From Candidatus Brocadiaceae bacterium (GTDB taxonomy: Bacteria; Planctomycetota; Brocadiia; Brocadiales; Brocadiaceae), in NCBI GenBank assembly GCA_030650655.1, contig JAUSDH010000198.1, positions 1-34,069 of the forward strand: a stretch of 34,069 nt of DNA, read 5' to 3'. The notes under the pieces are model-generated. The model worked only from the letters and a program-made list of their open reading frames with translations. It did no database searches and had not been told where the DNA came from. The position numbers and the translations under genes are program-made. The stretch's first letter is position 1; each line of letters begins with the position of its first letter. Of the stretch, positions 4,380 to 29,248 are shown piece by piece.

Positions 4380-4661
4380 ATGACGAATAAAGAAATCGAA
4401 AAACAGAATTTCATTTTGTGGTACAGCCTGTATGCCACTGGAAAAGAGTTGGAAATGGCGAGGACCAATAACATAGAAACACTCAATAGACTTTTGAAAG
4501 AATATGCTGAAGAAATTGATAAAATTAACAAATCAAGACGTTTTTACGAACGGATTATTCAGCCAGCAAGCGGAAAAATACAGGGTTTCGATGCAGCATT
4601 GGAAATAAATTATTTTTCATCCGAGAGAAAAAGTACCGTTTTGGAGGGGATGTGCCAATAG
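4380..4661 (+). CDS. Small helical protein of unknown function between ftsI and murE
   Basis: I do not recognise this 93-residue protein. It is hydrophilic, has no membrane segment or signal peptide, and is rich in Glu, Lys, Asn and Arg; residues about 20-58 look like a continuous, possibly coiled-coil helix. An excellent ribosome site (AGGAG at 4369-4373, 6 nt before ATG 4380) and overlap of its end with the murE start support real expression. Its location in the dcw cluster suggests a role in wall synthesis or division, but sequence gives no function. It does not look like FtsB, which would need an N-terminal membrane helix. Confidence 0.7.
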   Translation: MTNKEIEKQNFILWYSLYATGKELEMARTNNIETLNRLLKEYAEEIDKINKSRRFYERIIQPASGKIQGFDAALEINYFSSERKSTVLEGMCQ

Positions 4662-6151: not shown

Positions 6152-7558
6152 ATGGAAATCCTATCCCTCGATGAGATTGTAAAAGCCTTTTGCGGACAAA
6201 TAATATCCGGCGATAGAGACACAAAAATAAGGGGCATATCTACGGACAGTCGAACTCTTAAGCCTGGAGATTTATTTTTTGCACTCAAAGGAGAGCGTTG
6301 CGATGGCCACCAGTTTGTCATGCATGCAATGAACACAGACGCAGTGGGAGCTGTTATTTCAAATGAATTTAAAATAGAGCCAGAACATAAAAACTTTTCT
6401 GTAATTCGGGTAAAAGACACCACAACAGCGTTAGGAGATTTAGCGAAATATTATCGTCAAAAATTGAATACAAAGATTATCGGTATTACCGGAAGTAATG
6501 GTAAAACCACGACCAAAGAAATGACGTATCATATATTGTCCCGATTTGGTCCTACAGCAAAATCACAGAAAAGCTTCAATAATTTCATTGGTGTACCAGT
6601 GACAATATTTGAAATAGAAAATAGGCATCAATATGGCGTACTGGAAATGGGCACAAATGCTCCCGGAGAAATTCGACGTCTGTCTGAGATTGGTGCTCCT
6701 GATGTAGCAGTAATTGTTAATATTTCTAAAACGCACTTGGAAGGTCTCGGAAGTATTGAAGGAGTTGCACAGGCAAAAGCAGAAATATTAGAAAATCTCA
6801 GCAAGGGTGGAGTATTTGTATATAATGCCGATAATCCATGGTGTGCTAAAATTGCCAATTGTTTTAAAGGAAAAACAGTAGGCTTTGGTTTTAGCTCCCA
6901 GGCACATATTAGGTGTACGGACGTAAAGAAAAAAGACAAAGGGTATGTTTTCGAACTCAATGGACATTTTAAAATTCCCCTTCCCCTTCCTGGGTATCAT
7001 AATATTACGAACTGTTTGGGTTCTTTTGCGATTTGCAAGGCACTCGGTCACGATGTCTGCTCTGTAAAGGATGCCTTTTCCTCTTTTAAACTACCTTCAA
7101 TGAGAATTGAACAGCAACGAATAGGAAACATTACCATTATCAATGATGCTTACAATGCAAATCCTGAGTCTGTACGTGCAGCCTTACAATATCTTAGTGA
7201 AATTAATGCAGCGGGTAGAAAAGTTTTTGTATGCGGTGACATGCTGGAATTGGGAAAGGAGTCTGTTCAGTTACACAAAGAAATTGGAGAAACAGTATCT
7301 CAGCTAAATATTGATTTGTTATGGACTATAGGAAAATATGCATCTGAAATTGCAAAGGCGGCAAAATCATCAGGTACACCTGAAAGGCAAGTCATCAGTT
7401 TTCAGGATGTTTCAGAAATTACGGCTACCGAAATAAATGAACTAAGAGAGAATGATATAGTATTAATCAAAGGCTCCAGAGGTATGCATATGGAAAATAT
7501 TATTGAGAAGTTTAAGGAATTTTTCTCAAAGCGTGTGCCAGTCCATAATTGTAATTAG
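6152..7558 (+). CDS. murF: MurF, UDP-MurNAc-tripeptide:D-Ala-D-Ala ligase
   Basis: MurF joins the D-Ala-D-Ala dipeptide made by Ddl to the UDP-MurNAc tripeptide, finishing the soluble precursor. The 468-residue protein has the N-terminal DSRTLKPGDLFFALKG block, the P-loop GSNGKTT (114-120), LEMGTNAPGEI (about 164-174), THLEGLGSIEGVAQAKAEI with the carbamylated Lys (K209), and the C-terminal DAYNANPES motif. ATG 6152 follows an AGGG-type ribosome site by 7 nt and the murE stop by 18 nt. In most dcw clusters mraY comes next; here a sensor kinase intervenes. Confidence 0.97.
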   Translation: MEILSLDEIVKAFCGQIISGDRDTKIRGISTDSRTLKPGDLFFALKGERCDGHQFVMHAMNTDAVGAVISNEFKIEPEHKNFSVIRVKDTTTALGDLAKYYRQKLNTKIIGITGSNGKTTTKEMTYHILSRFGPTAKSQKSFNNFIGVPVTIFEIENRHQYGVLEMGTNAPGEIRRLSEIGAPDVAVIVNISKTHLEGLGSIEGVAQAKAEILENLSKGGVFVYNADNPWCAKIANCFKGKTVGFGFSSQAHIRCTDVKKKDKGYVFELNGHFKIPLPLPGYHNITNCLGSFAICKALGHDVCSVKDAFSSFKLPSMRIEQQRIGNITIINDAYNANPESVRAALQYLSEINAAGRKVFVCGDMLELGKESVQLHKEIGETVSQLNIDLLWTIGKYASEIAKAAKSSGTPERQVISFQDVSEITATEINELRENDIVLIKGSRGMHMENIIEKFKEFFSKRVPVHNCN

Positions 7559-7574
7559 CAAATAAATACTCACT

Positions 7575-9605
7575 ATGGATACCCAGAAAAAGGTACTGTT
7601 GGTGGAAAAAGACAATGCCATATGGCATTTTGTTCAAAGTGTACTTAAAAAAGATATATACGATCTAGACTTTGCCGATAATACCAAATATGCACTTACA
7701 AAAATTCAAAATAATACAACAGACCTGATTCTTTTTGATTGCGATTCTTTAGGGGTAAATATGTCAGAATTCATTTCCTTAATTAAAGACTCAACAGAAA
7801 ATATGCCTGGTATTATAGCGTTAACAAAGAATATTAACAACGATGTTGATTATACCCAACCCGCTGTAGATGATTTAATCACTAAACCGCTCAATTTGAC
7901 TGAATTACAGTACCGTGTAAACCGGGTTTTTGATCGTAGGAATATGATAGATTTGTTGAATAAAGACCTGGCAGATTCAGAAGCACTTCTCCAGATATCA
8001 GAAGCTGTATCATCAACACTGAGTAGCAGAGAAATTCTCCACATTATTGTCAAAAAAGTTGCTTCTCTTTTTGAAGCAACGCGTTGTTCTATTTTTCGTG
8101 TTGCTCATGACGAGAAATTTGCCCACGTAATTGCTTCTCACGATAATCCTGACATTGAGTTGGAGATAACGATTGATAATTACCCGGAAGTGAAGAAGGC
8201 GCTGGAGACAGGAGAGATGGTGATCGTTCAGTATATTCTCCTTGATCCATTAATGAAGGATGTGCAGGAAAATATAAAATCTCTAAAAAACAATGCGATT
8301 ATTGTTATTCCCATTATATTGAAAGACAACGTCATTGGAACTCTTTTTTTAAGAAGTGTTCGAGACAATAAATTCTTCAATGAAAGAGAAATAAAATTTT
8401 TGAAGGTCGTAGCTCGTATAGCTGCTAATTCGTTGGACAATGCCTTTCTTTACGAAAATCTAGAGTCTACACGGTTGCAGTTGGTACGGTCTGAAAGATT
8501 AAGGGCACTGGGAGAATTGGCTACTGGTGTAGCCCATAATTTTAACAATTTGTTGAGTGGTATTCTAGGGCACACACAAATGTTGCTTTCCAAGGACATC
8601 GACACCTCAATCCGTGAAAGATTACAAATTATTGAAAAAATCGTGTTAGATGGAGGTGAAGTTGTCAGAAGGATTCAGGAATTTACGAGAATTCGTACTA
8701 CACAGGATTTTTCAGAAGTCAATATAAAAGATATCATAGATGACGTCATTAGAATGACGGAGTCGAAATGGTCTGGAGGGTCTAATATCCCAAAAATAAC
8801 ACTTCGCGTTGATACCGATTCAATGGAAATCCCCACGGTAGAAGGGAACGCTTCGGATTTGAGAGATGTTTTTATTAACATTTTGTTTAATGCTGTTGAT
8901 GCGATGCCCAAAGGAGGAGAATTAACGATTCAAACAAAAACCAAGGGGAAGGATATTTTCGTTTATTTTTTTGATACGGGCGAAGGTATGTCCGAAGAGA
9001 CAAAGAAGAGAGTCTTTGACCCCTTTTTTACAACAAAGGGATCAAAGGGTACAGGTCTGGGGATGAGTCTTGCATACGGAATAATCATCAGGCACAACGG
9101 TCATATTAGCATAGACAGCGAACTTGGCGAAGGTACTACTGTTACCGTACAACTACCCATATCCGAAAAATTCATTAAAGAAATGGGGCGCAAATATAAT
9201 CTTAAACACGAAGAAAAAACGAAGATACTTCTCATAGATGACCACAAAATCACTCTGGATGTCCTTGCTGAGAACTTAGTAAATCTAGGCCACCACGTCC
9301 AGAAGGTCGACAGAGGTATGGCAGGTATTAAACTGTTTAAAGATGGGAATTACGATATTGTAATAACGGATGTTGGATTATCTGATATCTCTGGTTGGGC
9401 GGTCTCTAAAAAAATAAAAGATATATCACCTCAAGTACCGATTGTATTTATTACGGGATGGGGCAACCAACTCAGTTCATCCCAGTTAAAGGAATGTGGC
9501 GTGGATTACGTACTTACCAAGCCTTTTAAGATAGAAGAGATTTCTGCAATTATAAAAAAGGCTATTAAATCTAAAAAGATGTCTAAAGCTAAGAAAAGAG
9601 GTTAA
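7575..9605 (+). CDS. Hybrid histidine kinase, REC-GAF-HisKA-HATPase-REC, inside the dcw cluster
   Basis: The 676-residue protein is soluble (no membrane segment). Order: receiver domain (about 6-120; E11, phospho-acceptor D55, T84, K104, though the second acid of the pocket looks like K12), a GAF domain (about 140-295), HisKA with H321 in ATGVAHNFNNLL, and HATPase with N-box N439...D442-A443, DTGEGM (467-472), FDPFFTTK and GTGLGM (492-497). A C-terminal receiver (about 548-665) has D555/D556, phospho-acceptor D599, T627 and K649. The residue after the phospho-His is Asn where most HisKA kinases have Asp or Glu. It starts 16 nt after murF and ends 6 nt before mraY, so it is co-transcribed. The ligand of the GAF domain and the output are unknown; no output regulator is adjacent. 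Confidence 0.93.
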   Translation: MDTQKKVLLVEKDNAIWHFVQSVLKKDIYDLDFADNTKYALTKIQNNTTDLILFDCDSLGVNMSEFISLIKDSTENMPGIIALTKNINNDVDYTQPAVDDLITKPLNLTELQYRVNRVFDRRNMIDLLNKDLADSEALLQISEAVSSTLSSREILHIIVKKVASLFEATRCSIFRVAHDEKFAHVIASHDNPDIELEITIDNYPEVKKALETGEMVIVQYILLDPLMKDVQENIKSLKNNAIIVIPIILKDNVIGTLFLRSVRDNKFFNEREIKFLKVVARIAANSLDNAFLYENLESTRLQLVRSERLRALGELATGVAHNFNNLLSGILGHTQMLLSKDIDTSIRERLQIIEKIVLDGGEVVRRIQEFTRIRTTQDFSEVNIKDIIDDVIRMTESKWSGGSNIPKITLRVDTDSMEIPTVEGNASDLRDVFINILFNAVDAMPKGGELTIQTKTKGKDIFVYFFDTGEGMSEETKKRVFDPFFTTKGSKGTGLGMSLAYGIIIRHNGHISIDSELGEGTTVTVQLPISEKFIKEMGRKYNLKHEEKTKILLIDDHKITLDVLAENLVNLGHHVQKVDRGMAGIKLFKDGNYDIVITDVGLSDISGWAVSKKIKDISPQVPIVFITGWGNQLSSSQLKECGVDYVLTKPFKIEEISAIIKKAIKSKKMSKAKKRG

Positions 9606-9611
9606 AAAACT

Positions 9612-10688
9612 TTGTTATTTAGTTGGCTTTCTTCGATAAATTCATTAGAAATATTTAAATACATATCTTTTCGTTCTTGTCTGGCTGCTTTTACTGCTTT
9701 TTTAATCAGTATTTTTTTTGGTCACTGGTTTATTAAGAGACTGCGGATTTTAAAAATTGGTGAGGATACAACAAAAACAGACTCAGAAGAACTCAAACGT
9801 ATGCATTTCGATAAAAAAAATACACCGACAATGGGAGGAATTGTTGTGAATGTCTCTATTTTGATCTCCGTTTTGTTCTGGTGTAATATTTATAATGAAT
9901 ATGTTCTTCTCTTAATGTTTACGTTGATCTGGTTTGGTGTACTTGGGTTTATGGATGATTATATTAAACTTACGCAGAAGAATGCAGCCGGTTTGAGCGG
10001 TGTATCAAAGTTGTTATTTCAATCAGCATTGGGGCTCATACTGGGGCTGGTCTTATATTTCCATTTCAGTAAGTTTACCTGGGGCACACAACTGGTAATT
10101 CCTTTTGTAAAAGATTTTAGACCCGACATAGGTCCCTTTTACATATTGGCTGTTGGATTCTTTATCGTTGGGATGTCTAACGCAGTAAATCTTACTGATG
10201 GCTTGGATGGCTTAGCAATAGGGTGCAGCATTATTGCTGGAATTGCTTTTACTGTTATTGCCTATGCTTCAGGCAGGGTAGATTTTAGTGATTATTTAAG
10301 AATTCCTTATGTTCCTGGAAGTGGAGAATTAAGTGTTTTTTGTGCTGCGCTTGTAGGAGGAAGCTTGGGATTCTTGTGGTATAATTGTTTTCCTGCACAA
10401 ATTTTTATGGGTGACACAGGTTCATTGACATTAGGCGGTATGCTGGGACTAGTTGCTCTTATTGTAAAACAAGAACTGCTGATGGTTATTATCGGGGGTA
10501 TCTTTGTTACTGAGGCAGTTTCTGTACTGGTGCAAAAATTCTTTTATAAGATGACAAAGAGAAGGGTTTTCCGTTGTGCACCTTTACACCATCACTTTCA
10601 ATTTAAAGGATGGCCAGAGACGAAAATTACCCTCCGGTTTTGTATTATTGCAGCAATGCTGGCTGTATTTGGTCTTGTATTGCTATAA
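9612..10688 (+). CDS. mraY: MraY, phospho-MurNAc-pentapeptide translocase
   Basis: MraY transfers phospho-MurNAc-pentapeptide to undecaprenyl phosphate, making lipid I on the inner face of the membrane. The 358-residue, about ten-helix protein contains RMHFDKKNTPTMGG, the Asp pair D115-D116 in FMDDYIKL, NAVNLTDGLDGLA, FMGDTGSL, and the histidine motif APLHHHFQFKGWPE. The N terminus MLFSWLSS aligns with known MraY starts, which fixes the start at TTG 9612, 10 nt after a GAGG site. It begins 6 nt after the kinase stop. murD, usually next, is absent. Confidence 0.97.
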   Translation: MLFSWLSSINSLEIFKYISFRSCLAAFTAFLISIFFGHWFIKRLRILKIGEDTTKTDSEELKRMHFDKKNTPTMGGIVVNVSILISVLFWCNIYNEYVLLLMFTLIWFGVLGFMDDYIKLTQKNAAGLSGVSKLLFQSALGLILGLVLYFHFSKFTWGTQLVIPFVKDFRPDIGPFYILAVGFFIVGMSNAVNLTDGLDGLAIGCSIIAGIAFTVIAYASGRVDFSDYLRIPYVPGSGELSVFCAALVGGSLGFLWYNCFPAQIFMGDTGSLTLGGMLGLVALIVKQELLMVIIGGIFVTEAVSVLVQKFFYKMTKRRVFRCAPLHHHFQFKGWPETKITLRFCIIAAMLAVFGLVLL

Positions 10689-14922: not shown

Positions 14923-15927
14923 ATGAAGCCAAATAATGTTGTTGTACTGATGGGGGGTATATCTCCTGAGCGTGAAATTTCTTTGCGTTCTGGTAATGCA
15001 GTAGCAAGGGCATTAAAAGAGGCTGGATTTAACGTTGCTTGCATCGATGTAAAAGACGAGAAGATAGAAGAACTTGATCATATGGACATAGATGTCGCAT
15101 TTATTGCCTTACATGGGTATTTTGGCGAAGATGGGGGTGTACAACAACTTTTAGAATCGAAAGGAATTCTTTACACTGGCTCAGGTATAAATGCCAGCAG
15201 GCTTGCAATGGATAAATTAGCAACAAAAAAATGTTTTATTGATGCGGGTCTTAAAACGCCAGATTATATTACCGTGACAGAATTTCAAGAGTTACAGGAG
15301 ATACAGCAGGAAATAAGCAAACTAGGGTTACCGATAGTTTTAAAACCCACAAGGAATGGTTCTAGCATAGGCATATCAATCATTAAAAATATTAACGATC
15401 TTCAAATAGGTTTAGAAAAGGCTTTTGAATTTGGATATGAATTACTTGTTGAAAAGTACATAAAAGGCAGAGAATTGACCGTTGGAATATTGGATGACAA
15501 GGCGCTGCCAATTATTGAGATCAAACCGGCGGTAGAATTTTTTAATTACGAAGCGAAATATAAGGATGATAGAACAAAATATATCATTGTAGAAAAAACC
15601 CTAAGCGAACGGAAAAATACCGTTGGTGATTCCTCACACACTGTTGGCTTTCTCTCGCCTGCTATGTATCATAACGCACAGGAGCTTGCTATCAATGCCC
15701 AAAAAGTCCTCGGCTGTAAAGGATTTTCAAGAGTAGATATGTTGCTGGACGATAGAGATAACTTGTATTTATTGGAAATAAATACCATCCCCGGTTTTAC
15801 AGAAAAAAGCTTGCTGCCGAAGGCGGCAAAGGCGGCTGGCATGTCATTCACTTCATTATGTGAAATAATTGTTGATCTTGCATTCCAGAATATTCTTGTC
15901 AGTGTAGATGAACCAATACAAAATTAA
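14923..15927 (+). CDS. ddl: Ddl, D-alanine:D-alanine ligase
   Basis: Ddl makes the D-Ala-D-Ala dipeptide used by MurF. The 334-residue ATP-grasp enzyme shows the N-terminal LMGGISPEREISLRSG, LHGYFGEDGGVQQLLE, KPTRNGSSIGI, EKYIKGRELTVGIL, the substrate loop FNYEAKY (its Tyr is typical of D-Ala-D-Ala rather than D-Ala-D-lactate enzymes), and the metal/ATP end FSRVDMLLD...LLEINTIPGFTEKSLLPKAA. ATG 14923 lies 8 nt after GGAG (14911-14914). Its last 20 nt overlap ftsQ, implying coupled translation. A standard D-Ala-D-Ala terminus, hence vancomycin-sensitive chemistry, is predicted. Confidence 0.97.
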   Translation: MKPNNVVVLMGGISPEREISLRSGNAVARALKEAGFNVACIDVKDEKIEELDHMDIDVAFIALHGYFGEDGGVQQLLESKGILYTGSGINASRLAMDKLATKKCFIDAGLKTPDYITVTEFQELQEIQQEISKLGLPIVLKPTRNGSSIGISIIKNINDLQIGLEKAFEFGYELLVEKYIKGRELTVGILDDKALPIIEIKPAVEFFNYEAKYKDDRTKYIIVEKTLSERKNTVGDSSHTVGFLSPAMYHNAQELAINAQKVLGCKGFSRVDMLLDDRDNLYLLEINTIPGFTEKSLLPKAAKAAGMSFTSLCEIIVDLAFQNILVSVDEPIQN

Positions 15928-16852
15928 GGATATTATCAATAGCACATTCAACTATAAGCTTTTTTTAGCCATCCTTTCCTCTAAAATAGGGTTAATAAAA
16001 AAAGTTCTATATCCCTTTTTGCTTCAATTTGTTGTTTTTGCATGTATAATAATCTTTGGAATATGGGGTATCAATAAGACATGGCATTCATTAACGGATT
16101 TAAATATCTTCAAAATCAGCCCTTCTACCTTCTCCTTTCACACTCCATCATGGGTGACTGCCCGTTTTTCTGACGACATAAAACACGTAGCAGCCCTGAA
16201 CGAACAGTACGGCATGTATGAAAATAATTTGACTCAAAGAATAGCAGAGGTTTACGGAGGGATTGTTTTAATAAAAAAAATAGATTCGATCAAAAGGACA
16301 TTCCCCAATAAGTTAAATATTAAACTTGTGTTACGCAAGCCCACAGCTACCGTTAAAACTGGAAATTATACGTATCTTGTGGATGATGAATGTGTCTTAT
16401 TACCAAAAGAATATTACACATTACCAAATGCTGAATATGATATACCTTACATCCAAAGTAATAAATTGGCAAGAATACCCTTATATGGAAGTGAATGGAA
16501 TGACAAGGGAATTAAGGCAGGGATAGATATGGTGAAATTTCTCAGGGCAAATAATATTCATAACATTTTTAAGATTCTAGCAGTAGATGTATCAAATGTG
16601 TGTAAAAGGAGGTTTACTGGTAAAAGTGATATCGTTTTTTGGACAGAGAATAATACTCAGATACGGTGGGGATGCTCTTCCCTCTGTAACGAACCTAACG
16701 AACGCTCCAATGAAGAGAAGCTACAAAACCTGCTGAGTATTGCAAAAACTGAAGGAACCAACCTAAAACAAATGGAATATGTTGACGTACGTTGGAAAAA
16801 ACCTTCGGGAAAGCGTTGGGCAAAGGTTAATAATATATTAGAAGAACGTTAA
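15908..16852 (+). CDS. ftsQ: FtsQ/DivIB-like division protein
   Basis: FtsQ links early and late division proteins and binds FtsL-FtsB. The 314-residue protein has a cytoplasmic N terminus, one membrane segment (about 36-54) and a periplasmic domain. The stretch ending IKRTFPNKLNIKLVLRKPTA, then YLVDDECVLLP, matches the C-terminal part of the POTRA/FtsQ pattern ('.P..L.I.V.ER.P.A ... LVD..G.VL'). Sequence similarity is modest, so the position directly after ddl (as in murC-ddl-ftsQ of many bacteria) carries weight. No ribosome site is seen; translation probably couples to ddl. In most bacteria ftsA and ftsZ follow, but here the next gene is on the other strand. Confidence 0.82.
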   Translation: MNQYKIKDIINSTFNYKLFLAILSSKIGLIKKVLYPFLLQFVVFACIIIFGIWGINKTWHSLTDLNIFKISPSTFSFHTPSWVTARFSDDIKHVAALNEQYGMYENNLTQRIAEVYGGIVLIKKIDSIKRTFPNKLNIKLVLRKPTATVKTGNYTYLVDDECVLLPKEYYTLPNAEYDIPYIQSNKLARIPLYGSEWNDKGIKAGIDMVKFLRANNIHNIFKILAVDVSNVCKRRFTGKSDIVFWTENNTQIRWGCSSLCNEPNERSNEEKLQNLLSIAKTEGTNLKQMEYVDVRWKKPSGKRWAKVNNILEER

Positions 16853-18113: not shown

Positions 18114-18149
18114 GAATAAAAAGTTTACCCACTTACGGGAGATTTATTG

Positions 18150-20174
18150 ATGAACAAATGCATCTATGCATCGATTCTTGTTTTGTTTGCAATTGGTTGT
18201 AAAGAAACCCAAATAAAGCAGTCTGATTTTGTTCCATTCAAAAAACCAGTAACACTTTCTACAACAACTGAGGCGGTAGAGAAAAAACCCTGGGAATATG
18301 AAATCTCACCGAAAAAAGAGGTTATAGAGAAAAAGGAGGGTATACCGGATGAATTTGTATATCCAGAGGAACACAAAAAACCTGAACCCTCTCTTCAAAA
18401 ACCTGAATATACAGGCGATAAAATCGATGTCGCATTAAATTTCGATAACGCAGAAATAAAGGATGTTTTACAGGTTATTTTAGGTGAGATTCTTAATGTA
18501 AACTATATTTTAGATAAAAGAGTCGGAGGTACAATCAATCTTCATGCCACTGGGCAGGTCTATAAAGAAGAACTCCTTTCGATGCTCAACACATTACTCT
18601 TTGTGTATGATTTTGCAATAATAAAGGACGGTGATTTATATAGAATACTTCCTAAAGCAGAATCCAGACAGGAAACAAATATTGTTATTTCCGGGGACAA
18701 AATTCCCCCCTGGAGTAAAGATATAATGATTCAAATAGTTCCTCTGCAATACGAAAACCCAAAGAATTTGAATGCTACTATAAAACCATTTATGACTGGG
18801 ATTGGAAATATAGTTACTCACGGCGACTCTCCCTATATCATACTCATCGAATCAGCCTCAAACATGGAAAAACTGCTTACCTTAGTGAAAACCTTCGATG
18901 TCCCGTTTTTTGCCGGTAAAGCCGTGAAATTTTATGATTTCAAATATGTCGATGCAAGAAATATGGCAAAAGATCTTGCCGCTATAGCACAATCGATGGG
19001 AGGAAAGGCAGGTGGTGAGGGTGAATTTAACTTCGTACCCTTTTCTGACAGTAATAAGATGTTAGTTGTTACCAAAGTACCAGAACTTTTACCAAAAATC
19101 GACCTTTGGATAAAAAATGTAGATGTTCCTCCGTCAGTGTTAGAAGAGGAGACAAAAGTGTATGTATATAAAGTGCAACATCAAAAAGCCGAAACGATTG
19201 TGCCTGTTCTAACACAAATTTACAATGAAAAAATGGCTGCGCAACCTAAACCGCTGGGGAAGAAACAGCTTGAGGCAATGAAGATCGTTGCTGATGCAAA
19301 AACAAATACCATTGTCGTTAAGGCATTGCCGAGTGATTATAGGAGTATTAAAGCGATTATAGAGGCTATAGACGCAACTCCTCAACAAGTATTTATCGAA
19401 GTACTGATTTTAGAGGTCGATCTTAATAATAACTTGGACTATGGGGCACAGTGGGCATTGAACATGGGCAGTGTAAAATTACGGGGAATAACTGACTCTC
19501 AAAGTGGTAAAGTTACAACTACTGCTGGTACGCCATTTCTCAAGTTTACTAAAGGAAACTTTGAAATTCTGATGGATATTCTTGCAACAAATTCTAAGGC
19601 AAAGATATTATCGGCTCCCCATATCCTTGTGAGAGACGAACAGCCTGCAAGCATACAAGTGGGAAACGAAGTCCCTATTCTTTCTAGCTCCGGCCAACAA
19701 ACAGGTACCACGGTCACGTTTCAGCAAGTACAGTACCGTGATACGGGTATCATCCTTACGGTAACTCCTCATATTGGAGAAAATGATTTTGTAACATTAG
19801 AAATAAAACAAGAGGTAAGCAATGCCGAAACAACAACTACAGGAGTTAGTGATTCACCGACCTTTAGTACCCGCAAAGCAGGAACGTCTCTTGTAATAAA
19901 GAGTGGACATACCGTAAGTCTGGGTGGAATTATCGAACAAAGAAATGAAAAAAGTGTTAGTAAAATACCCATTTTGGGGGACATACCTTATTTGGGGAAT
20001 TTATTTAAAACTACCTCAATTGCCAATAGAAGAACAGAACTGATTATGTTAATAACCCCCTATATTGCAAACGATGCGGAAGATGCAGATTCTTTGACCA
20101 ACGCATTTCAAAAGAAGCTGAAGGAAATTGAGCCACTAATAACCCAAAGGGTGAATGAAGTTGAGAAATATTAA
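18150..20174 (+). CDS. gspD: GspD, type II secretion secretin (outer membrane channel)
   Basis: GspD forms the multimeric outer membrane gate of the T2SS. The 674-residue protein has a short hydrophobic signal ending AIGC with Cys17, so it may be a lipoprotein (Ala rather than Leu at -3 is a weak lipobox). A Pro/Lys/Glu-rich linker (about 25-88) follows, then an N0-type domain (about 90-170) and N1-N3-type domains (about 190-420). The secretin domain ends with VPILSSSGQQTGTTV, YRDTGIILTVTPHI, SGHTVSLGGII and KIPILGDIPYLGNLF, the secretin signature. ATG 18150 is 8 nt after GGAG (18138-18141); a TTG just before it is less likely. It heads the operon and overlaps the next gene by 20 nt. Confidence 0.95.
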   Translation: MNKCIYASILVLFAIGCKETQIKQSDFVPFKKPVTLSTTTEAVEKKPWEYEISPKKEVIEKKEGIPDEFVYPEEHKKPEPSLQKPEYTGDKIDVALNFDNAEIKDVLQVILGEILNVNYILDKRVGGTINLHATGQVYKEELLSMLNTLLFVYDFAIIKDGDLYRILPKAESRQETNIVISGDKIPPWSKDIMIQIVPLQYENPKNLNATIKPFMTGIGNIVTHGDSPYIILIESASNMEKLLTLVKTFDVPFFAGKAVKFYDFKYVDARNMAKDLAAIAQSMGGKAGGEGEFNFVPFSDSNKMLVVTKVPELLPKIDLWIKNVDVPPSVLEEETKVYVYKVQHQKAETIVPVLTQIYNEKMAAQPKPLGKKQLEAMKIVADAKTNTIVVKALPSDYRSIKAIIEAIDATPQQVFIEVLILEVDLNNNLDYGAQWALNMGSVKLRGITDSQSGKVTTTAGTPFLKFTKGNFEILMDILATNSKAKILSAPHILVRDEQPASIQVGNEVPILSSSGQQTGTTVTFQQVQYRDTGIILTVTPHIGENDFVTLEIKQEVSNAETTTTGVSDSPTFSTRKAGTSLVIKSGHTVSLGGIIEQRNEKSVSKIPILGDIPYLGNLFKTTSIANRRTELIMLITPYIANDAEDADSLTNAFQKKLKEIEPLITQRVNEVEKY

Positions 20175-20772
20175 AGTTGTGAATAAAAACGGCGTTACCC
20201 CAGTAGAAAGAAAGCTGCTCCATTTATGGTGGGGTGAAAGAAACAGAAAGTTTGAATGTGGTTTGAGATCCTATCCAAACTTTCAAACGGGGTTTACCAT
20301 CCTTGAAGTTATGGTCGCACTGGCAATCATGGGAATTTCTATTGGTATTTTCTTTGGTTTGGTTGGGAATTCTTCAAAATTAAGAGGAAAGATTGACGAG
20401 CACACAAAAATAGTGCTTCTTGCAAGAACCAAAACAGAAGAGGCTTTTCTGGGAATACTTGGTAAAAAATATGCGAAATTGAATGAGGAAAAGACCTTTG
20501 AAGGCGTGACGAAAGACGGTGTTCAATGGAAAATATCGCAGGTAGATAAATATAAAGAAGCCAGGAAAAAAATCACTATGGATGCATCAAATGAAGATGA
20601 AAGCGATGTAGAACTTCCACCCAAAGGAACTACAATGCTGAGCACACACGTTGAAGGAATAAATATCAACACCATTTTTTTCGTTGAAGAATCAGAAGAA
20701 GATGAAAACGATACTGAAGGATCGGTTGAAGAAAATGACGGTGGAAAATCTGGGAAAGAAATGGATGATTAA
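20155..20772 (+). CDS. gspI: GspI-like minor pseudopilin with an acidic tail
   Basis: A 205-residue pseudopilin. The prepilin site is TG-FTILEVMVALAIMG: cleavage after G46, Glu5 at E51. EVMVALAI is typical of GspI, and the order D-I-J-K supports this; GspH is the alternative. From ATG 20155 the leader would be 46 residues, unusually long, and overlaps gspD by 20 nt; an in-frame TTG about 9 codons before the cleavage site would give a normal leader but lacks a good ribosome site. The C terminus (about 178-205) is a strongly acidic tail rich in Glu, Asp, Asn and Gly, not usual for GspI. Minor pseudopilins I, J and K form the tip of the pseudopilus. Confidence 0.78.
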   Translation: MKLRNIKVVNKNGVTPVERKLLHLWWGERNRKFECGLRSYPNFQTGFTILEVMVALAIMGISIGIFFGLVGNSSKLRGKIDEHTKIVLLARTKTEEAFLGILGKKYAKLNEEKTFEGVTKDGVQWKISQVDKYKEARKKITMDASNEDESDVELPPKGTTMLSTHVEGININTIFFVEESEEDENDTEGSVEENDGGKSGKEMDD

Positions 20773-21505
20773 ACACAAAGAGGGTTTTACGTTATTTGAA
20801 CTACTTATAGCCCTTTTTATAGGTACAATTTTGATTATGTCAGGTGCTTACGCAATAAGAACAGGTTTGTTCTCGATGGAAAGAGAAGAGGCGTGGTTTA
20901 ATGACACAACAAAAGAAAAAGCCGCCTTCGACTTTTTCTGGCAACAGGTATCCTCATTACGTGTTCAAAAGATCCCAAGAAAGGATACCCTCCTTACCGA
21001 GGAAAACAAAACGACCAAAAAAAAGAAAACCAATTACTTCGCAGGTGAAAAAGATTTTCTTTCCTTTGTGTCCCCTCTTTCTTTTAAAAAACATTATGGA
21101 CAAGGATTGATAATAGCTAATTATAAAGTAAAATTAAATGGTAACGGCTTGTGGGATCTAATTTACATGGAAACCAGGGTTACCCCCACAATACTCATTA
21201 AATTATCTGAAGAATCTGAAAGCACATTAAATACGGATAAGGATTACACGATATTCCTTAAGGATTTTGATATGATTTCATACGCGTATCTTGACACAGT
21301 GGAAGAGGAAACCGATAATGAGGAAGAAGTCCAGGTAGCCACTCTAGATGCCGATGTTATTGAAGGTACTGATTTAAAATGGAAAGAAAAAATAGCACAG
21401 AAAATCCCGCAGGCGATAAAGTTGTCGGTTACAAAAAATGGAAAGGCACAAGAGCTTATATCACCAATCATGGCTACGTACTCATTTTTAGCCTCTGGGC
21501 AATAG
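20765..21505 (+). CDS. gspJ: GspJ-like minor pseudopilin
   Basis: A 246-residue pseudopilin from ATG 20765, with a six-residue basic leader, cleavage after G7 (KEG-FTLFELLIALFIG) and Glu5 at E12. The start overlaps the gspI stop by 8 nt; in-frame ATGs upstream (20684, 20735) would put the leader inside gspI and are less likely. The body matches GspJ in outline: a Trp/Phe-rich helix after the membrane segment, then the closing PQAIKLSVTKNG...SPIM strand pair. A Lys-rich loop (TEENKTTKKKKTN) is inserted around residue 80. GspJ binds GspI and GspK at the pseudopilus tip. Its last 127 nt are also read by gspK in another frame. Confidence 0.8.
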   Translation: MIKHKEGFTLFELLIALFIGTILIMSGAYAIRTGLFSMEREEAWFNDTTKEKAAFDFFWQQVSSLRVQKIPRKDTLLTEENKTTKKKKTNYFAGEKDFLSFVSPLSFKKHYGQGLIIANYKVKLNGNGLWDLIYMETRVTPTILIKLSEESESTLNTDKDYTIFLKDFDMISYAYLDTVEEETDNEEEVQVATLDADVIEGTDLKWKEKIAQKIPQAIKLSVTKNGKAQELISPIMATYSFLASGQ

Positions 21506-22440
21506 TAATCTTTGGGTTTATTGCGCTAAGTTTTACCCGGAATACTGGAATTGCTATAAAAACAGAAATTACTTCTACGGAACGCGTGAAAAATGTTTAC
21601 GCAGCGCGGGGAGCTTGTATTTATGCCACACAGATGCTGATGTTGCCGAAAAAACATGAAAAAGAAACCAAAGGCGGTAAAATCAAAAAATTGAAAAAGA
21701 ACAGAGATCGGGATGCAAGTAAAAAAGACAGAAACAGCGATCCCTGGACGCCAAGCAGTGATCCATACTCAGTACAAGTAGGCGACAGGAATTGTGATGT
21801 ATTTATCAGCGATGAAAGTGGAAAAATTAATGTAAATAAACTAACGGAAGATACAAGAGATAGTTTTATTAAATTTCTAATTGCTTATAAACTAGAAGAG
21901 CTTGCAGCACAGACTATAACAGACTCTATACTAGACTGGCTCGATGAAGATGATTTACATCATGTTAACGGCGCAGAAAAAGACTATTATGCAACACTGC
22001 CAGAGCCCTATGAGCCAAAGAACGGGTCGTTTGAATCTATAGAAGAATTGACCTTAATTAAAGGAATTACCCCACAAATATTTGAATTGCTACGAGATCA
22101 CCTGACGATTTACGGATCAGGCAAAATTAATGTCAACTTTGCATCTAAGGAAGTTCTTCTTTGTGTATCTGCAATTACCGAAGAAATAGCTAAGGCAATA
22201 ATTTACTACAGGGGAAAAAAAGGGAAAATTGCAAAAATTGATGATTTAAAAGAAATCTTTAGATACTTTGGCATTATCGGCGCAGATTTCCAAAAGATTA
22301 TGAATTATTTAACCGTATACGACTCAAACTATATGACGATCAATTCAATTTCTTCGTCAGACAAAATAAAAAATTCCTATAAAATAGTTGTTTTCAAAAG
22401 TGTGGATCATTGTAGAAGTATTGCGGCATATCCTGAATAG
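21379..22440 (+). CDS. gspK: GspK-like minor pseudopilin (tip protein)
   Basis: GspK caps the pseudopilus and typically lacks Glu5. Here the site is TNHG-YVLIFSLWAIVIFG: cleavage after G32, and residue 5 of the mature chain is Phe37, not Glu, as expected. The 353-residue protein then has a Lys/Arg-rich insert (about 92-117), SGKINVNKL, ILDWLDEDD, the PYEPKNGSFESIEEL block common in GspK, and a helix-hairpin-helix-like INVNFASKEVLLCVSAI...IYYRGKKG. No ATG/GTG/TTG exists in frame between 21379 and the membrane helix, so the start at 21379 and the 127-nt overlap with gspJ look real. Leader residues are encoded wholly inside gspJ. Confidence 0.85.
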   Translation: MERKNSTENPAGDKVVGYKKWKGTRAYITNHGYVLIFSLWAIVIFGFIALSFTRNTGIAIKTEITSTERVKNVYAARGACIYATQMLMLPKKHEKETKGGKIKKLKKNRDRDASKKDRNSDPWTPSSDPYSVQVGDRNCDVFISDESGKINVNKLTEDTRDSFIKFLIAYKLEELAAQTITDSILDWLDEDDLHHVNGAEKDYYATLPEPYEPKNGSFESIEELTLIKGITPQIFELLRDHLTIYGSGKINVNFASKEVLLCVSAITEEIAKAIIYYRGKKGKIAKIDDLKEIFRYFGIIGADFQKIMNYLTVYDSNYMTINSISSSDKIKNSYKIVVFKSVDHCRSIAAYPE

Positions 22441-22459
22441 TATTTAATATATTGTCATT

Positions 22460-23725
22460 ATGAATAAAATACCGTTCGTCAATTTATTTTCCCAAAGTTC
22501 AACTGGCTTGTCTATCAATGGGAATGACCTTATTATAACAATTGTTAGCAAAAAACTGGTTAAATATTCACACGAGACGCTCAAGATAGAAGATTTTATG
22601 CTTAAGGATACCCTGCAATTAAAACATGCACTAATACAGAAAAAGAAATTTGTGGGAGAAACTATCCTTTCCTTACCAAGGGAACTTGCTATTATCAGAG
22701 AAACAACTTGTCCATATTCGAACTTGAAAGAATTAAGAGAAGCACTCAGATACCAATTGGATAGTTTTATTCCTTTCAGCAATGAAGACGTTTATTTTGA
22801 TATTCATTCATTATCACAAAATAGACACGACACGAAAATCCTGATTGTTGCAATAAAGAAAACGGAATTGGATAATATTCTATCAAAATTGAAAGCCCTT
22901 GAAATTGTTCCTTCTCGAGTTATTATTTCACCTTTCGCCTTTCTTCCTATCCTTGAGGAAAGAAAAGGTTCGGTCGTAGTAGTTAGTAAAAACATAAACA
23001 ATTATAGTTATAATGTATTTGAAAATAACCATTTGGTTTTATCTTCGATTGCAAAAAATGAGGTTGAATTAACTAATCAGATTAAATCAAGGCACACTGA
23101 TGAAATACTGTTAACACATGTTACCGATGGATTTTTGCCAGATGCATACAAAACTCGTTATCAATTGTTAGATGATAATTCTGAATCCTATGGAGCAGCA
23201 CTTTACGGTTTAGCTGAATATCCATGCTATTTGAGTCTTGTTAAATCACATAAAAAGCGGCTAAATCCCCAAGTTGTATTAATATGTTTTCTTATCGGTA
23301 TTTTGATATTTTTCTCGTTCCTTATTCCTTACATACAGAAGATAAATAATCTGGCAATACTAAAAACAGTAAATACACAAGTTAAATCAATAAAAAAAGA
23401 CGTTGTAATCGTTGAGAAACTACAAGAACGCATAGTAGTGTTAGATGAAGTCGTTAACAAGGTCAATGCTATAAGAGGAAAATATATTCCCAGGATTGAC
23501 GTGATCCTCGAGTTGGCAAAGACGTTACCTAATGACGCCTGGGCAAAGGGCATTACAATCATGGACAATGCATTTGAAATAGAGGGAGATGCTGTATCCT
23601 CGACGAATTTGGTACCAATTTTAGAGAATTCTCCTGTTTTGTCAGGCGTGGGTTTAACTTCTCCCGTAACAAAAACACAGAGTGGCAGAGAAAAATTTAG
23701 AATTAAAGGAAATATCGAAAAATAG
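22460..23725 (+). CDS. gspL: GspL-like inner membrane platform protein (PilM-PilN type)
   Basis: The 421-residue protein has a cytoplasmic actin-like (PilM/GspL) domain (about 1-260), with the GETILSLPRELAIIRETTCP and LREALRYQLDSFIPF blocks typical of PilM/GspL, one membrane segment (about 271-292), and a periplasmic PilN-like part with a coiled coil (about 300-350) and a small ferredoxin-like domain (WAKGITIMDNAFEIEGDA). GspL recruits the GspE ATPase to the membrane in known systems. Start ATG 22460 lacks a clear ribosome site and follows gspK by 19 nt. It is the expected gene before gspM. Confidence 0.85.
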   Translation: MNKIPFVNLFSQSSTGLSINGNDLIITIVSKKLVKYSHETLKIEDFMLKDTLQLKHALIQKKKFVGETILSLPRELAIIRETTCPYSNLKELREALRYQLDSFIPFSNEDVYFDIHSLSQNRHDTKILIVAIKKTELDNILSKLKALEIVPSRVIISPFAFLPILEERKGSVVVVSKNINNYSYNVFENNHLVLSSIAKNEVELTNQIKSRHTDEILLTHVTDGFLPDAYKTRYQLLDDNSESYGAALYGLAEYPCYLSLVKSHKKRLNPQVVLICFLIGILIFFSFLIPYIQKINNLAILKTVNTQVKSIKKDVVIVEKLQERIVVLDEVVNKVNAIRGKYIPRIDVILELAKTLPNDAWAKGITIMDNAFEIEGDAVSSTNLVPILENSPVLSGVGLTSPVTKTQSGREKFRIKGNIEK

Positions 23726-23730
23726 GGAAT

Positions 23731-24333
23731 ATGGGACGATTCTTAGAACTATTTTACAGACTCAAAATAAGAGAAAGGATACTGTTGGTTGTTGCCCTTA
23801 TTGTTCTCTTGTATATGAGTCTTGATAGGGTTGTGATTACACCCTTTTTTAAATCAATTAATGAAACAAAAGAGCGATTAGAGACTCAAAAGAAACTGCT
23901 TATGAAATATTATTCATTTGCAGCTAATAAAAAACAATATGAGACCAGGCTGGTTGAACTGGAACAATATTATGCAAAACTTCAGGAAAAATTCCTGTCA
24001 GAAGAAACGGAAGAACTTGCCTCTGCAAAATTACAGGAAATGATAAATAATCTGGCTACGAAGAATGGATTAGTTGTGTCCAGAAGTACGGCATTAAAAA
24101 AAGAGGTAATTAACAAAAAACCATATCTTATTGCCATGTCAATTAATTTCGAAATAAGTGATTTAGATAGTTCTCAAAAACTTCAAAATTTTCTTTACGA
24201 TATAGAATACAATAACGGCAAACTACTTTTTATCGATAATTTGCGAATAAAAACCTTAGGTCTAAATGTTGTAAAAGGGGCGACAATTTCTTCTACCTTA
24301 ACGGCAATTGCCTCTATTGGAAAGAAGTTGTAA
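23731..24333 (+). CDS. gspM: GspM-like inner membrane protein (PilO type)
   Basis: A 200-residue bitopic protein: cytoplasmic N terminus, membrane helix at about 17-31, a long coiled coil (about 38-95) and a C-terminal ferredoxin-like domain (about 105-200). This is the GspM/PilO layout. GspM pairs with GspL in the assembly platform. It starts 5 nt after gspL and is followed 5 nt later by the GspC-like gene. Sequence conservation in this family is low, so topology and gene order carry the call. Confidence 0.8.
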   Translation: MGRFLELFYRLKIRERILLVVALIVLLYMSLDRVVITPFFKSINETKERLETQKKLLMKYYSFAANKKQYETRLVELEQYYAKLQEKFLSEETEELASAKLQEMINNLATKNGLVVSRSTALKKEVINKKPYLIAMSINFEISDLDSSQKLQNFLYDIEYNNGKLLFIDNLRIKTLGLNVVKGATISSTLTAIASIGKKL

Positions 24334-24338
24334 CGTAT

Positions 24339-24968
24339 ATGAAGCCTATTAACATTAATACGAAATCGTTACAGTTTTTTATAGGAACATTTGGTAAAAA
24401 AATAAAGCAATGGAAACACTACTTACCCATAATAAATTTAGCTTTTCTGATAGGAGTAGCTTGCCTGGCAATCACTTGTGTGCTGTTAGTTTATCACCCT
24501 CCTGAAAACATAACGAAACCAGAAAAGCAGGGAGAAGAAACCCTGGGAAAGAAAAATTCATTACCTCCTCTGTCCCCGAATGCTAAAACGACAGATTACT
24601 ATGAACTCATACTGTCAAATAACCCTTTTTCTCCCAATCGCACCGCCTGGAACCCCCCAGAAACAAAAACGGATTCCAAACATGAAGAAGGCGCCGCGCA
24701 AGCAGATGCACAAACAGCAGAAAATCAACAAAAACCAAAGGGCACTCCTAAAAAGATTACTTTACGAGGTATCATGATTCTTGGAGATACCAGAAAGGCA
24801 TTAATAGAAAATCCCGATAAAACAAAAAATAAAAATAATTTTATTTTTATCGAAGAAGGCGAAGAGGTTGCAGAATACAAGGTAAAAAATATAGAACAAG
24901 ATCAAGTAAAACTTGATTGGTACGGGGAAGAACATATTGTTATTATGAGATCCAACATTAAAAAATAG
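24339..24968 (+). CDS. gspC: GspC/PilP-like inner membrane protein
   Basis: The 209-residue protein has a cytoplasmic end, one membrane helix (about 30-52), a Pro/Lys/Gln/Glu-rich linker with the short SNNPFSPNR segment, and a C-terminal beta domain (about 139-207, ITLRGIMILGDTRKALIENP then EEGEEVAEYKVKNIEQDQVKL) matching the GspC homology region / PilP fold. This domain contacts the secretin N0 domain in known systems and bridges the two membranes. GspC is usually at the operon front; here it lies between gspM and gspF. It lacks a PDZ or coiled-coil end. Confidence 0.78.
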   Translation: MKPININTKSLQFFIGTFGKKIKQWKHYLPIINLAFLIGVACLAITCVLLVYHPPENITKPEKQGEETLGKKNSLPPLSPNAKTTDYYELILSNNPFSPNRTAWNPPETKTDSKHEEGAAQADAQTAENQQKPKGTPKKITLRGIMILGDTRKALIENPDKTKNKNNFIFIEEGEEVAEYKVKNIEQDQVKLDWYGEEHIVIMRSNIKK

Positions 24969-24974
24969 CTATTT

Positions 24975-26177
24975 ATGAGTACTTTTAAATATAAGTTATT
25001 AACGACATCCAGTGGCATTCTTGAAGGGGAAAAAGAGGCAATCAGTAAATTAGAACTGATTAATGATCTCCGCAAATCTGGTCATGTCATTTTGAATATT
25101 CAACAAGTAGATAAGAATAAGAAATTTGGAATATCTTTCAATCGTGTAAACAAGAAAGCCGTTTTACCTTTCACACAAGAATTAGCAACACTGCTTGAAG
25201 GCGGTATTCCCATTGACAAAAGCATGTCTATTTTATTATCAGGGCAGGATAATAACACAATTAAAAATGTTGTTGAAGATTTGCTGAATAGGATTAAATC
25301 CGGAAAATCCTTTGCTGAAGCACTCGCAAACCATACCAAACTATTCACCGGTGTTTACATAAACATGGTACGTGCAGGAGAAGAGGGTGGAGTATTACCA
25401 CAAGTACTTAAGAGGCTGGGGGCGTTTCAGGAACGCATACAAAAAGTCAGGGGTGAAATTATCTCTGCAATGATTTATCCACTCCTGTTAAGCAGTACTG
25501 GTCTCGTGTCAGTGGGTGCACTCATTGTCTATGTTATCCCTAAATTCTCTCAGATATTTGAGGGAATGGGAATTTCCCTTCCTTTTTCGACTATGATGCT
25601 CATGGGTATGAGCCGATACTCCATTAGATACGGCTGGATTTCTATTATTGTCGCCGGAATCGCATTCTTTTTGTATAAAAAAGCGATGAAGGATAAGAAA
25701 ACATCAATAAAAATAGATCAAAAAAAGTTAAAATTACCACTCATTGGTAATCTTCTATGGAAAATGCAAATATCCAGATTTGCGAGAACGCTCGGTACAT
25801 TGCTAGAAAACGGGGTACCGCTGCTTAAATCAATGGATATCGTTAAAGATGTGCTATCCAATCAATATCTTGCTGACATTCTCAGTGATGTAAAGTCTAA
25901 TGTGAAAGAAGGGGCGAGCCTTACAGTTTCACTCGCACAAAAAGGATTTCTACCAGAAATTGCTGTCCACTTATTAAAAGTAGGCGAAGAAACAGGGAAG
26001 TTGGATCAAATGCTCCTTAAAGTTGCAGATAATTTTGATGCCGACACGGAACAGCGAATGAAGCGACTGGTAACTATGGTAGAACCCTTACTTATATTGC
26101 TCATGGGTGCTGTCATCGGTGTAATTGTAATCTCTATGCTAACGGCAATCCTTAGTGTAAACGATCTACGATTTTAA
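24975..26177 (+). CDS. gspF: GspF, polytopic inner membrane protein of T2SS
   Basis: GspF is the integral platform protein on which the ATPase acts. The 400-residue protein has two T2SSF repeats (about 65-190 and 265-390), each with the family pattern (FTQELATLLEGGIPIDKSM and FARTLGTLLENGVPLLKSM), the AGEEGGVLPQVLKRLG / VGEETGKLDQMLLKVA motif, and three membrane segments (about 167-192, 218-238, 370-392). It is the last gene of the operon. No gspE or gspG follows: the window continues with a repeat and a sugar transferase. Confidence 0.96.
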   Translation: MSTFKYKLLTTSSGILEGEKEAISKLELINDLRKSGHVILNIQQVDKNKKFGISFNRVNKKAVLPFTQELATLLEGGIPIDKSMSILLSGQDNNTIKNVVEDLLNRIKSGKSFAEALANHTKLFTGVYINMVRAGEEGGVLPQVLKRLGAFQERIQKVRGEIISAMIYPLLLSSTGLVSVGALIVYVIPKFSQIFEGMGISLPFSTMMLMGMSRYSIRYGWISIIVAGIAFFLYKKAMKDKKTSIKIDQKKLKLPLIGNLLWKMQISRFARTLGTLLENGVPLLKSMDIVKDVLSNQYLADILSDVKSNVKEGASLTVSLAQKGFLPEIAVHLLKVGEETGKLDQMLLKVADNFDADTEQRMKRLVTMVEPLLILLMGAVIGVIVISMLTAILSVNDLRF

Positions 26178-27022: not shown

Positions 27023-29035
27023 TCATTTTTTATGAAATAGGACATGAACCGGAACAAGCGCTTCGCTTCCACCAGGCGGCGTCCATAAAAATTCCATAAC
27101 GGCCCCTCCTCCTCCGTCGAAATATTTAACTCTGACATGACGGAATCCCTCGTCAAGGGACACAACCCCGGAAATATGCCGCATTGCATGAAGGTCGTCA
27201 TTGTCTACGACCAGGTTCCCATCGATATAAACAACGGAACCATCATCCGATTTTGTCGCAAATTGATAGACTCCCTTTTGTGTTATGTGTAGATATCCTT
27301 CCCACTCAATACCAAAGGGAGATCTGTAGGGTTTTTGTGTTTCATCATTATAGGTAAAGGAAATAGCCTTATTTTCCACCTTGGATAAAAAAGGTGTTCC
27401 TATACATTCAATGTTGTAATAATATTTCCCTGATAAACCTGATTCTAGTTCATCCTTTGAGACTTTGGTAATTGGCAGTGCTGCAGCCTTTGACTCCGCT
27501 TCTTTACCATATACGGCGTTATACAGACCTTCTTGTATATAAGCTACAAGCCATACACCCGGTCGGAATACAAACCGCTCTTTCTTGTAGTTTCCCTTTA
27601 ATTTTTCCTTTAGTTTGTTTTCTCCACTCTTATCAACCAGGATAACTGGGGCATTGGGATTATCAATAACGTTGCCCCAGAACTTTGCATTTTTATACTC
27701 TCTGAAATACCAGGGTAATGGCCAATATTCTTTAGAAACAATATTGATTTCCATATTCTTGCCACAAGAGTTTGAGAGTGATTTCATTCTGTCTAATAAA
27801 TTAAAAACATCTCGTTTGGTCTGAACATAAACAAGTTCGTATCGTTCATCGTCGTAATTTATAAAATTTAACATAATGGACTGATAACAAATGAAACCAA
27901 AAATACAGATATAGATTGGATAAAAAATGGCGTAGTGCCATCTTTTTTTTAGTATTCCAAATATGCCATTTACAAAAATCCCGGCCAGAATGGAGAATGG
28001 AAGTATGATGTTCAAAATCAACCACGGCGTCTTGTATGGTATTAAGGAATAAATGATGTAGACAAGAATTGCCCATAGTGAAACGAATACGGTGAATTTG
28101 TTCCTGCGCCGGAATGCATAATAAAATCCAGCGATTCCAAGCACAAGAATAGGAAGTTCAAACTTATACAGCACCTTAAAATAATAAATAAAAGGCTTGG
28201 CATGGCCGCCTTTGTCGTGCATGCCCGTTTTCGACCATATCGCAAGGGTGGTCAAAATACCATGGATACCTTTATAATAGGTAAGAAAAGAGGAATAAAA
28301 CAGAAAATTGATAAGCAGGAATATTCCCACACTGATGACAATGGCATATTTATATTTCCTGCAATCACTCGCAAAGGCGCTGAATATCCCTTTAAAGTAG
28401 GGTAATCGTGAACCCTTTGATAAGGAAACCATCTCGTACAAATATGCAATTGCTAAAGATATTGCATAAATGATAAAGGTAATGATATATGTTTCTTTTA
28501 TGGTAACAACGCTTGCAATACTTGCCGCTGCAAAATAGATATACCTTGATTTCCTCGTTTCAGAGTAAAGAAAAAAGGAGACAACAACGGCGAGTGAAAA
28601 GAAGACGAAATAGGTTTCATGGATGGTATCCCTCGAAAAAAAAGAATTTGCCGGAGAAATGGCAATAAGCAATCCCGTTGTCAGTAAACCCATTTTGCCG
28701 ATTCTTCTTCGTAAAGGATACAACAATGCAACCACCATAATGCCAAACAGTATCGGCATAAGCCTGAATGAAAAATCTGAGATACCGAGAATATAAAAAG
28801 GAATTAATCCAATATAATAGAGGAATGGTCCGTGATAATTGGAGGGATCATAGTGGTAATAATTATTATTATATAAATTCAACAAGAAAAAACTATTTAC
28901 CCCCTCGTCCGAATGAAGAGGTCTGAGGCCAACGTCCCAAAAACGAATTAATGATGCAATGAAAATGGGCACAAAAAAAGCGATGAGTAATTGAATTCTC
29001 AGCTTATGCTGTTCTTCTCTAGATTCCATTGACAT
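27023..29035 (-). CDS. Agl23/TIGR03663-like GT-C membrane protein with C-terminal PA14 domain
   Basis: The 670-residue protein has about ten membrane segments in residues 15-400, preceded in the first loop by HSDEGVNSFF (acidic pair D43-E44, the GT-C catalytic position). NYHGPFLYYIGLIPFYILG and FFSRDTIHETYFVFF match TIGR03663/Agl23 family proteins, which in archaea are linked to protein glycosylation. Residues 534-670 form a PA14 domain: IEWEGYLHI, TKSDDGSVVYIDG with D597-D598, HAMRHISG, KYFDGGGGAVMEFLW. PA14 lectins bind sugar through a Ca2+ held by such a DD pair. The fusion suggests the enzyme recognises glycan outside the membrane. It is convergent with the GT2 gene (2-nt gap). Confidence 0.85.
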   Translation of the reverse strand: MSMESREEQHKLRIQLLIAFFVPIFIASLIRFWDVGLRPLHSDEGVNSFFLLNLYNNNYYHYDPSNYHGPFLYYIGLIPFYILGISDFSFRLMPILFGIMVVALLYPLRRRIGKMGLLTTGLLIAISPANSFFSRDTIHETYFVFFSLAVVVSFFLYSETRKSRYIYFAAASIASVVTIKETYIITFIIYAISLAIAYLYEMVSLSKGSRLPYFKGIFSAFASDCRKYKYAIVISVGIFLLINFLFYSSFLTYYKGIHGILTTLAIWSKTGMHDKGGHAKPFIYYFKVLYKFELPILVLGIAGFYYAFRRRNKFTVFVSLWAILVYIIYSLIPYKTPWLILNIILPFSILAGIFVNGIFGILKKRWHYAIFYPIYICIFGFICYQSIMLNFINYDDERYELVYVQTKRDVFNLLDRMKSLSNSCGKNMEINIVSKEYWPLPWYFREYKNAKFWGNVIDNPNAPVILVDKSGENKLKEKLKGNYKKERFVFRPGVWLVAYIQEGLYNAVYGKEAESKAAALPITKVSKDELESGLSGKYYYNIECIGTPFLSKVENKAISFTYNDETQKPYRSPFGIEWEGYLHITQKGVYQFATKSDDGSVVYIDGNLVVDNDDLHAMRHISGVVSLDEGFRHVRVKYFDGGGGAVMEFLWTPPGGSEALVPVHVLFHKK

Positions 29036-29119
29036 GGAACATTTTCCCCCTTTTTATCTTTAAAAATCTTTATTCGCAATTCAGCTTTATAAATAAGTTA
29101 AGTATTTAAGATGCCTATG

Positions 29120-29216
29120 GGAACCACAGATTGCACAGATTTCACAGATAAAAATAGAAACGATCTGCGGGATCGCATTGCCATAAATCTGTGTAATCTG
29201 CGAAATCTGTGGTTCC
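29120..29216. repeat. Long palindromic intergenic repeat with 9-bp internal period
   Basis: Left arm 29120-29149 and right arm 29187-29216 pair at 27 of 30 positions. Each arm contains three CAGAT/ATCTG units exactly 9 bp apart (29127, 29136, 29145; 29187, 29196, 29205). The 37-nt loop holds a second small hairpin, CGATC-tgcgg-GATCG (29161-29175). Element lies between two PA14-GT-C genes, 85 nt upstream of the first's ATG. No transposase is nearby. Confidence 0.85.
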
Positions 29217-29248
29217 AAACGTTTTTATTGGCCTGCGTCTATATCACG

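Follow-up and report, generated by a model that had tools for sequence, protein, structure and literature searches.

A hybrid kinase gene between murF and mraY

The window, by which we mean the whole 34,069-nucleotide stretch of Candidatus Brocadiaceae DNA analysed here, contains a dcw cluster that runs mraZ, rsmH, a small ftsL-like open reading frame (ORF), a PBP/ftsI gene, a 93-aa ORF, murE, murF, a histidine kinase gene, mraY, ftsW, murG, murC and ddl. The kinase ORF (7575-9605, + strand) encodes 676 aa from an ATG start without an internal stop. Its 5' neighbour, murF (6152-7558, +; TIGR01143, 447 bits, cut-off 288.6), ends 16 nt before it, and its 3' neighbour, mraY (9612-10688, +; TIGR00445, 370 bits, cut-off 192), opens with a TTG at 9612, 6 nt after it; both gaps agree with those given in an earlier, sequence-only reading of this DNA. 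The murF-mraY-murD order which that reading called usual is not found here, as mraY leads into ftsW-murG-murC-ddl and a different contig carries murD. The AGAGGT ribosome-binding site of mraY falls within the last codons of the kinase gene (site, kinase TAA at 9603-9605 and mraY TTG together spanning 9596-9614, +), and this site and start codon are kept in relatives both with and without the kinase. A terminator would not fit into gaps of 16 and 6 nt, and no terminator-like site was detected at either kinase junction, though the total for the window exceeds that of shuffled sequences. This spacing suggests that the kinase is co-transcribed with murF and mraY. Across the window, sigma-54-like sites are no commoner than chance (17 versus 13.5 in shuffles) and sigma-70-like sites show no excess (62 versus 63).

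Judged from its sequence, the ORF encodes an intact, soluble REC-GAF-HisKA-HATPase-REC hybrid histidine kinase, and the possibility of a chance ORF was rejected. All of its domains are on the + strand. The first receiver, REC1 (7593-7919; PF00072, 43.7 bits), contains D55, T84 and K104, with E11-K12 at the site where receiver domains usually have two acids. It is followed by a GAF sensor domain (8031-8435, residues 153-287; PF01590, 55.3 bits) and by the HisKA dimerisation and phosphoacceptor region (8508-8696, residues 312-374; PF00512), whose score of 25.5 bits is 1.4 below the Pfam curated cut-off of 26.9. Despite this sub-cut-off score, all ATPase boxes and the H-box His are present in every homologue (the His in 8/8), His321 lying in the motif HNFNN (HDFNN in genome G017). 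The HATPase_c domain (8847-9161, residues 425-529; PF02518, 79.7 bits) has intact N (N439/D442), G1 (D467/G469/G471), F (F484) and G2 (glycines) boxes, and the C-terminal REC2 (9225-9554, residues 551-660; PF00072) is a canonical receiver with D555/D556, D599, T627 and K649. The chain thereby holds what a hybrid kinase requires by sequence, namely the HisKA His, the HATPase_c boxes and a same-chain receiver with Asp, T/S and Lys. The prediction of an intact kinase with a receiver at each end is upheld by the two Pfam Response_reg matches and by the catalytic residues, and that of a soluble protein by the hydropathy profile, in which no transmembrane-like segment was found and the highest 19-residue value, 1.99, falls within the GAF domain. 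A structure prediction from five close sequences (mean pLDDT 40) was set aside. As a hybrid kinase the protein is unremarkable; what is unusual is its location inside dcw.

Three further ORFs of the cluster deserve mention. The 93-aa ORF (4380-4661, +), which follows the ftsI-type PBP gene and overlaps the GTG start of murE, matched no Pfam family; it is found in the same place in two other genomes of its genus at 85-90% identity and in genome G025 at 67%, and is likely an unannotated small dcw gene. ORFs at 2018-2389 and 15908-16852 (+) occupy the positions of ftsL and ftsQ and each carry an N-terminal hydrophobic stretch and no Pfam match; possibly, they are diverged FtsL and FtsQ proteins of an FtsZ-less lineage.

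Distribution, decay and a probable single insertion

Homologues of the kinase were sought in 59 genomes (33 from the family and 26 from four sister families), in which murF and mraY were also placed. Matches spanning REC1 through the ATPase domain were confined to g1, the genus of the window, and to G017 and G025 of a second genus, g11. Six of the seven g1 genomes carry the kinase, so it is not the peculiarity of a single genome: murF, kinase and mraY share one contig in G000, G001, G003 and G004, while in G002 and G005 the locus is split at contig ends into pieces consistent with the same arrangement. The 11 genomes of g11, which is probably Candidatus Brocadia, comprise two with a kinase truncated in REC2, five with scraps only and four with nothing. 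Family-wide, six genomes have the gene, two a truncated version, six remnants and 18 no trace, murF lying next to mraY in these, with one (G007) unreadable. Among the sister families, murF adjoins mraY without a kinase in all 22 readable genomes of 26, the two genes being 42-247 nt apart. A phylum sample of 392 genomes added only distant kinases, the best of them (G061) aligning from residue 113 onward within an open frame of 2034 aa, and a peptide-pattern genome scan recovered, besides four g1 genomes, only unrelated kinases. The murF-kinase-mraY order, which was to be looked for across Planctomycetota, fails outside the two genera; a general planctomycete feature or dcw core gene was therefore rejected, as the position is not conserved across the phylum. 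The kinase is a real but lineage-limited addition, not a general regulator of wall building.

The source genome is a fragmented metagenome-assembled genome (MAG) of 310 contigs, which might invite the view that assembly or binning created the arrangement. The same junctions recur, however, in the independent MAGs nzgw514, NC_groundwater_411, M_DeepCast_100m and S40-1, and truncated orthologues occupy the same junction in g11; these independent genomes refute an artefact, whose probability we regard as negligible. One of these MAGs, nzgw514, has been described as an anammox bacterium and as one of two MAGs close to Candidatus Brocadia (PMC8862662).

The g11 copies show different stages of erosion. 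In G017 and G025 the kinase is a 573-aa version ending at the same point inside REC2 (..ENF(V/I)N*), directly before mraY; Thr84 of REC1 is replaced by Ile in both copies and Glu11 is also gone in one. Short remnants in G024, G032 and G027 reach the same REC2 end point, G028 retains a REC1 remnant at a contig end, and the g1 genome G006 (58% complete; the remnant comes from one MAG contig) has an H-box piece fused to a REC2 tail. For each of these five remnants, the observed score was reached by 0 of 60 shuffles. The remnant end is also kept in G031, as judged by DNA similarity to G027, and remnant tests were negative in G014, G026 and G030. No full-length kinase occurs elsewhere in the 33 family genomes, where the next matches cover only residues 280-670 or so at 34-36% identity; the gene was therefore lost rather than moved, and a relocated copy was rejected. 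In a MurF+MraY tree, the four g11 genomes without any kinase trace group as a single clade (support 1.0), so that after the insertion the gene must have been truncated or lost on at least five separate occasions. The family backbone of this tree is poorly supported and the depth of the insertion is not claimed from it. Because murF and mraY persisted through these repeated truncations and losses of the kinase, the wall pathway can do without it, and the kinase is dispensable.

Two local irregularities were observed at these loci. In G006, a GC-rich stretch unlike kinase sequence (locus L061, 1799-2172; CCCCCAGCTACGCCGGTGG) precedes the remnant and could be a sign of a repeat or mobile element at the site of the deletion. 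In G029, mraY (locus L070, 1605-2680) is split into three fragments lying in different frames, one of which contains a stop codon; the cause is either a sequencing error or the decay of an essential gene.

Estimates of dN/dS (Nei-Gojobori method) within g1 are 0.08-0.16 for the kinase, 0.11-0.16 for murF and 0.04-0.09 for mraY; the g1 kinase is under purifying selection as strong as that on murF. For the G025-G017 pair the values are 0.30, 0.15 and 0.06, respectively, and within this kinase pair the GAF (0.40) and REC1 (0.32) domains are relaxed, with HisKA (0.13) still constrained. Between the genera (G000-G025), dS of the kinase (1.11) is similar to that of murF (1.24) and mraY (1.58), which fits common descent over recent transfer. 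A single insertion before the split of g1 and g11 is the parsimonious reading, albeit not a proven one.

Taken together, we consider it probable that an orphan hybrid kinase entered the dcw operon once, in an old insertion, was kept in g1 and repeatedly discarded in g11, and works with an unlinked partner. By this account, one insertion in the common ancestor of g1 and g11 would have placed the kinase under co-expression with murF and mraY; REC2 would have been deleted early in g11 and the rest would have decayed repeatedly, and one g1 genome would have lost its kinase as well.

Proposed phosphate flow and candidate partners

The kinase would act as a cytoplasmic switch. Autophosphorylation of His321 would depend on a small ligand bound by the GAF domain, with REC1 tuning the response according to its own state; the phosphate would then go to D599 in the REC2 of the same chain, to an unlinked regulator, or to both. 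The identities of ligand and partner are guesses, and that REC1 is short of one of the two usual acids counts against the preferred account. No output or response regulator gene adjoins the kinase, in keeping with the expectation of a distant output protein. The genome contains 56 receiver matches (PF00072), including approximately 14 whose open frames, at 447-482 aa, have the length typical of NtrC-type regulators; because the kinase has an AtoS/ZraS/NtrB-type core, one of these regulators would be the likeliest partner. The NCBIfam models AtoS, ZraS, CckA and ArcB all match this core, each far under its cut-off, and the nearest solved chains are those of sporulation kinase B and ZraS. With kinases of the NtrB/AtoS/ZraS type, the protein shares the HxFNN H-box and the N, G1, F and G2 boxes, but it is soluble, senses through a GAF domain, bears receivers at both ends and has no linked NtrC-type regulator.

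Phosphate might instead travel through a histidine phosphotransferase (HPt) in the manner of CckA-ChpT, with REC2 as the intermediate. CckA has the same HisKA-HATPase-REC order and H-box type, and its models rank with the better-scoring ones of NCBIfam, but these equivalog scores (159.8 and 141.7 bits) lie far beneath cut-offs of 1000, and the present kinase has an additional N-terminal REC and GAF and lacks a membrane part. No stand-alone HPt (PF01627) was found in the genome, which is 87% complete and in which ChpT-type folds would fall outside the model; the sole Pfam HPt is within a 771-aa protein that has its own receiver. A relay via a stand-alone HPt is thus not borne out, and a direct, unlinked regulator is favoured over it; we rate the CckA-ChpT-style route as quite improbable.

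Comparable architectures are known from other settings. SgmT of Myxococcus xanthus is an orphan hybrid kinase whose primary sensor is a GAF domain at the N-terminus, and its partner regulator, DigR, is also an orphan; SgmT differs in its C-terminal GGDEF domain and in having neither an N-terminal receiver nor a dcw link (PMC3509222). GAF-HisKA-REC kinases of the sister families (L009-L013) are 34-35% identical to the kinase from GAF to REC2, but their N-terminal part is not receiver-like, and two of them (L010, L012) adjoin unrelated genes.

Relation to wall synthesis

The sequence-only reading had suggested a tie of the kinase to wall precursor supply or division, a proposal to which the present results add nothing beyond position, the gene having been lost repeatedly while murF and mraY stayed. 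In its explicit form, the proposal holds that the kinase responds to a signal from the cytoplasm and that its own regulator adjusts dcw transcription or the activity of the precursor enzymes, in a feedback loop with the kinase's own operon. Conserved embedding in g1 under strong purifying selection would fit, as would precedent for two-component control of dcw genes in Rhodobacter sphaeroides, where NtrX, of the NtrYX system, binds DNA ahead of mraZ-mraY and of ddlA-ftsA (PMC7240162) and CenKR has an effect on the dcw cluster (PMC9275681). Those systems have a known regulator of their own and a measured effect on dcw, whereas here position alone links the two. Moreover, the kinase is absent from other genera, has no regulator linked to it and lies in a window where sigma-54-like sites occur at chance frequency, and we judge such a regulator unlikely.

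Alternatively, the kinase may be a passenger that serves an unrelated pathway and borrows the steady, growth-linked expression of dcw, a narrower form of the explanation that we prefer. Patchy retention, erosion without effect on the neighbours and the absence of a nearby partner all speak for it, but six g1 genomes keep the exact position over synonymous divergence of up to about 1, an outcome that an important location would predict as well; we would give this reading roughly even chances. More speculatively, and with a probability slightly lower still than that of the wall regulator, the amount of this lineage-specific kinase could scale with the wall-precursor enzymes, so that a cytoplasmic metabolic signal is fed to wall synthesis or division through a circuit that g11 has abandoned.

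Anammox bacteria are planctomycetes without FtsZ. If the kinase does act on wall synthesis, it would offer a handle on growth control in these organisms; such control would be optional, given the repeated loss. A full-text search of open-licence papers found no description of a histidine kinase gene inside dcw. Comparative work portrays the cluster as an ancient locus whose history is one of loss and relocation, likely with no gene gain (PMC8871954); the kinase, in contrast, is a clear gain, that of a signalling gene, and its later decay can be seen at several stages.

Elsewhere in the window, the dcw cluster is followed by a type II secretion-like cluster (18147-26177, +) with GspD, a pseudopilin-like protein, GspK, PilM/PilN-like proteins, GspM and GspF. 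On the opposite strand are two large adjacent proteins with C-terminal PA14 domains, one of which also has a mannosyltransferase-like domain (27023-31654, -), and a HepT-like ribonuclease adjoining a nucleotidyltransferase (31667-32540, -), a probable HEPN/MNT toxin-antitoxin pair.
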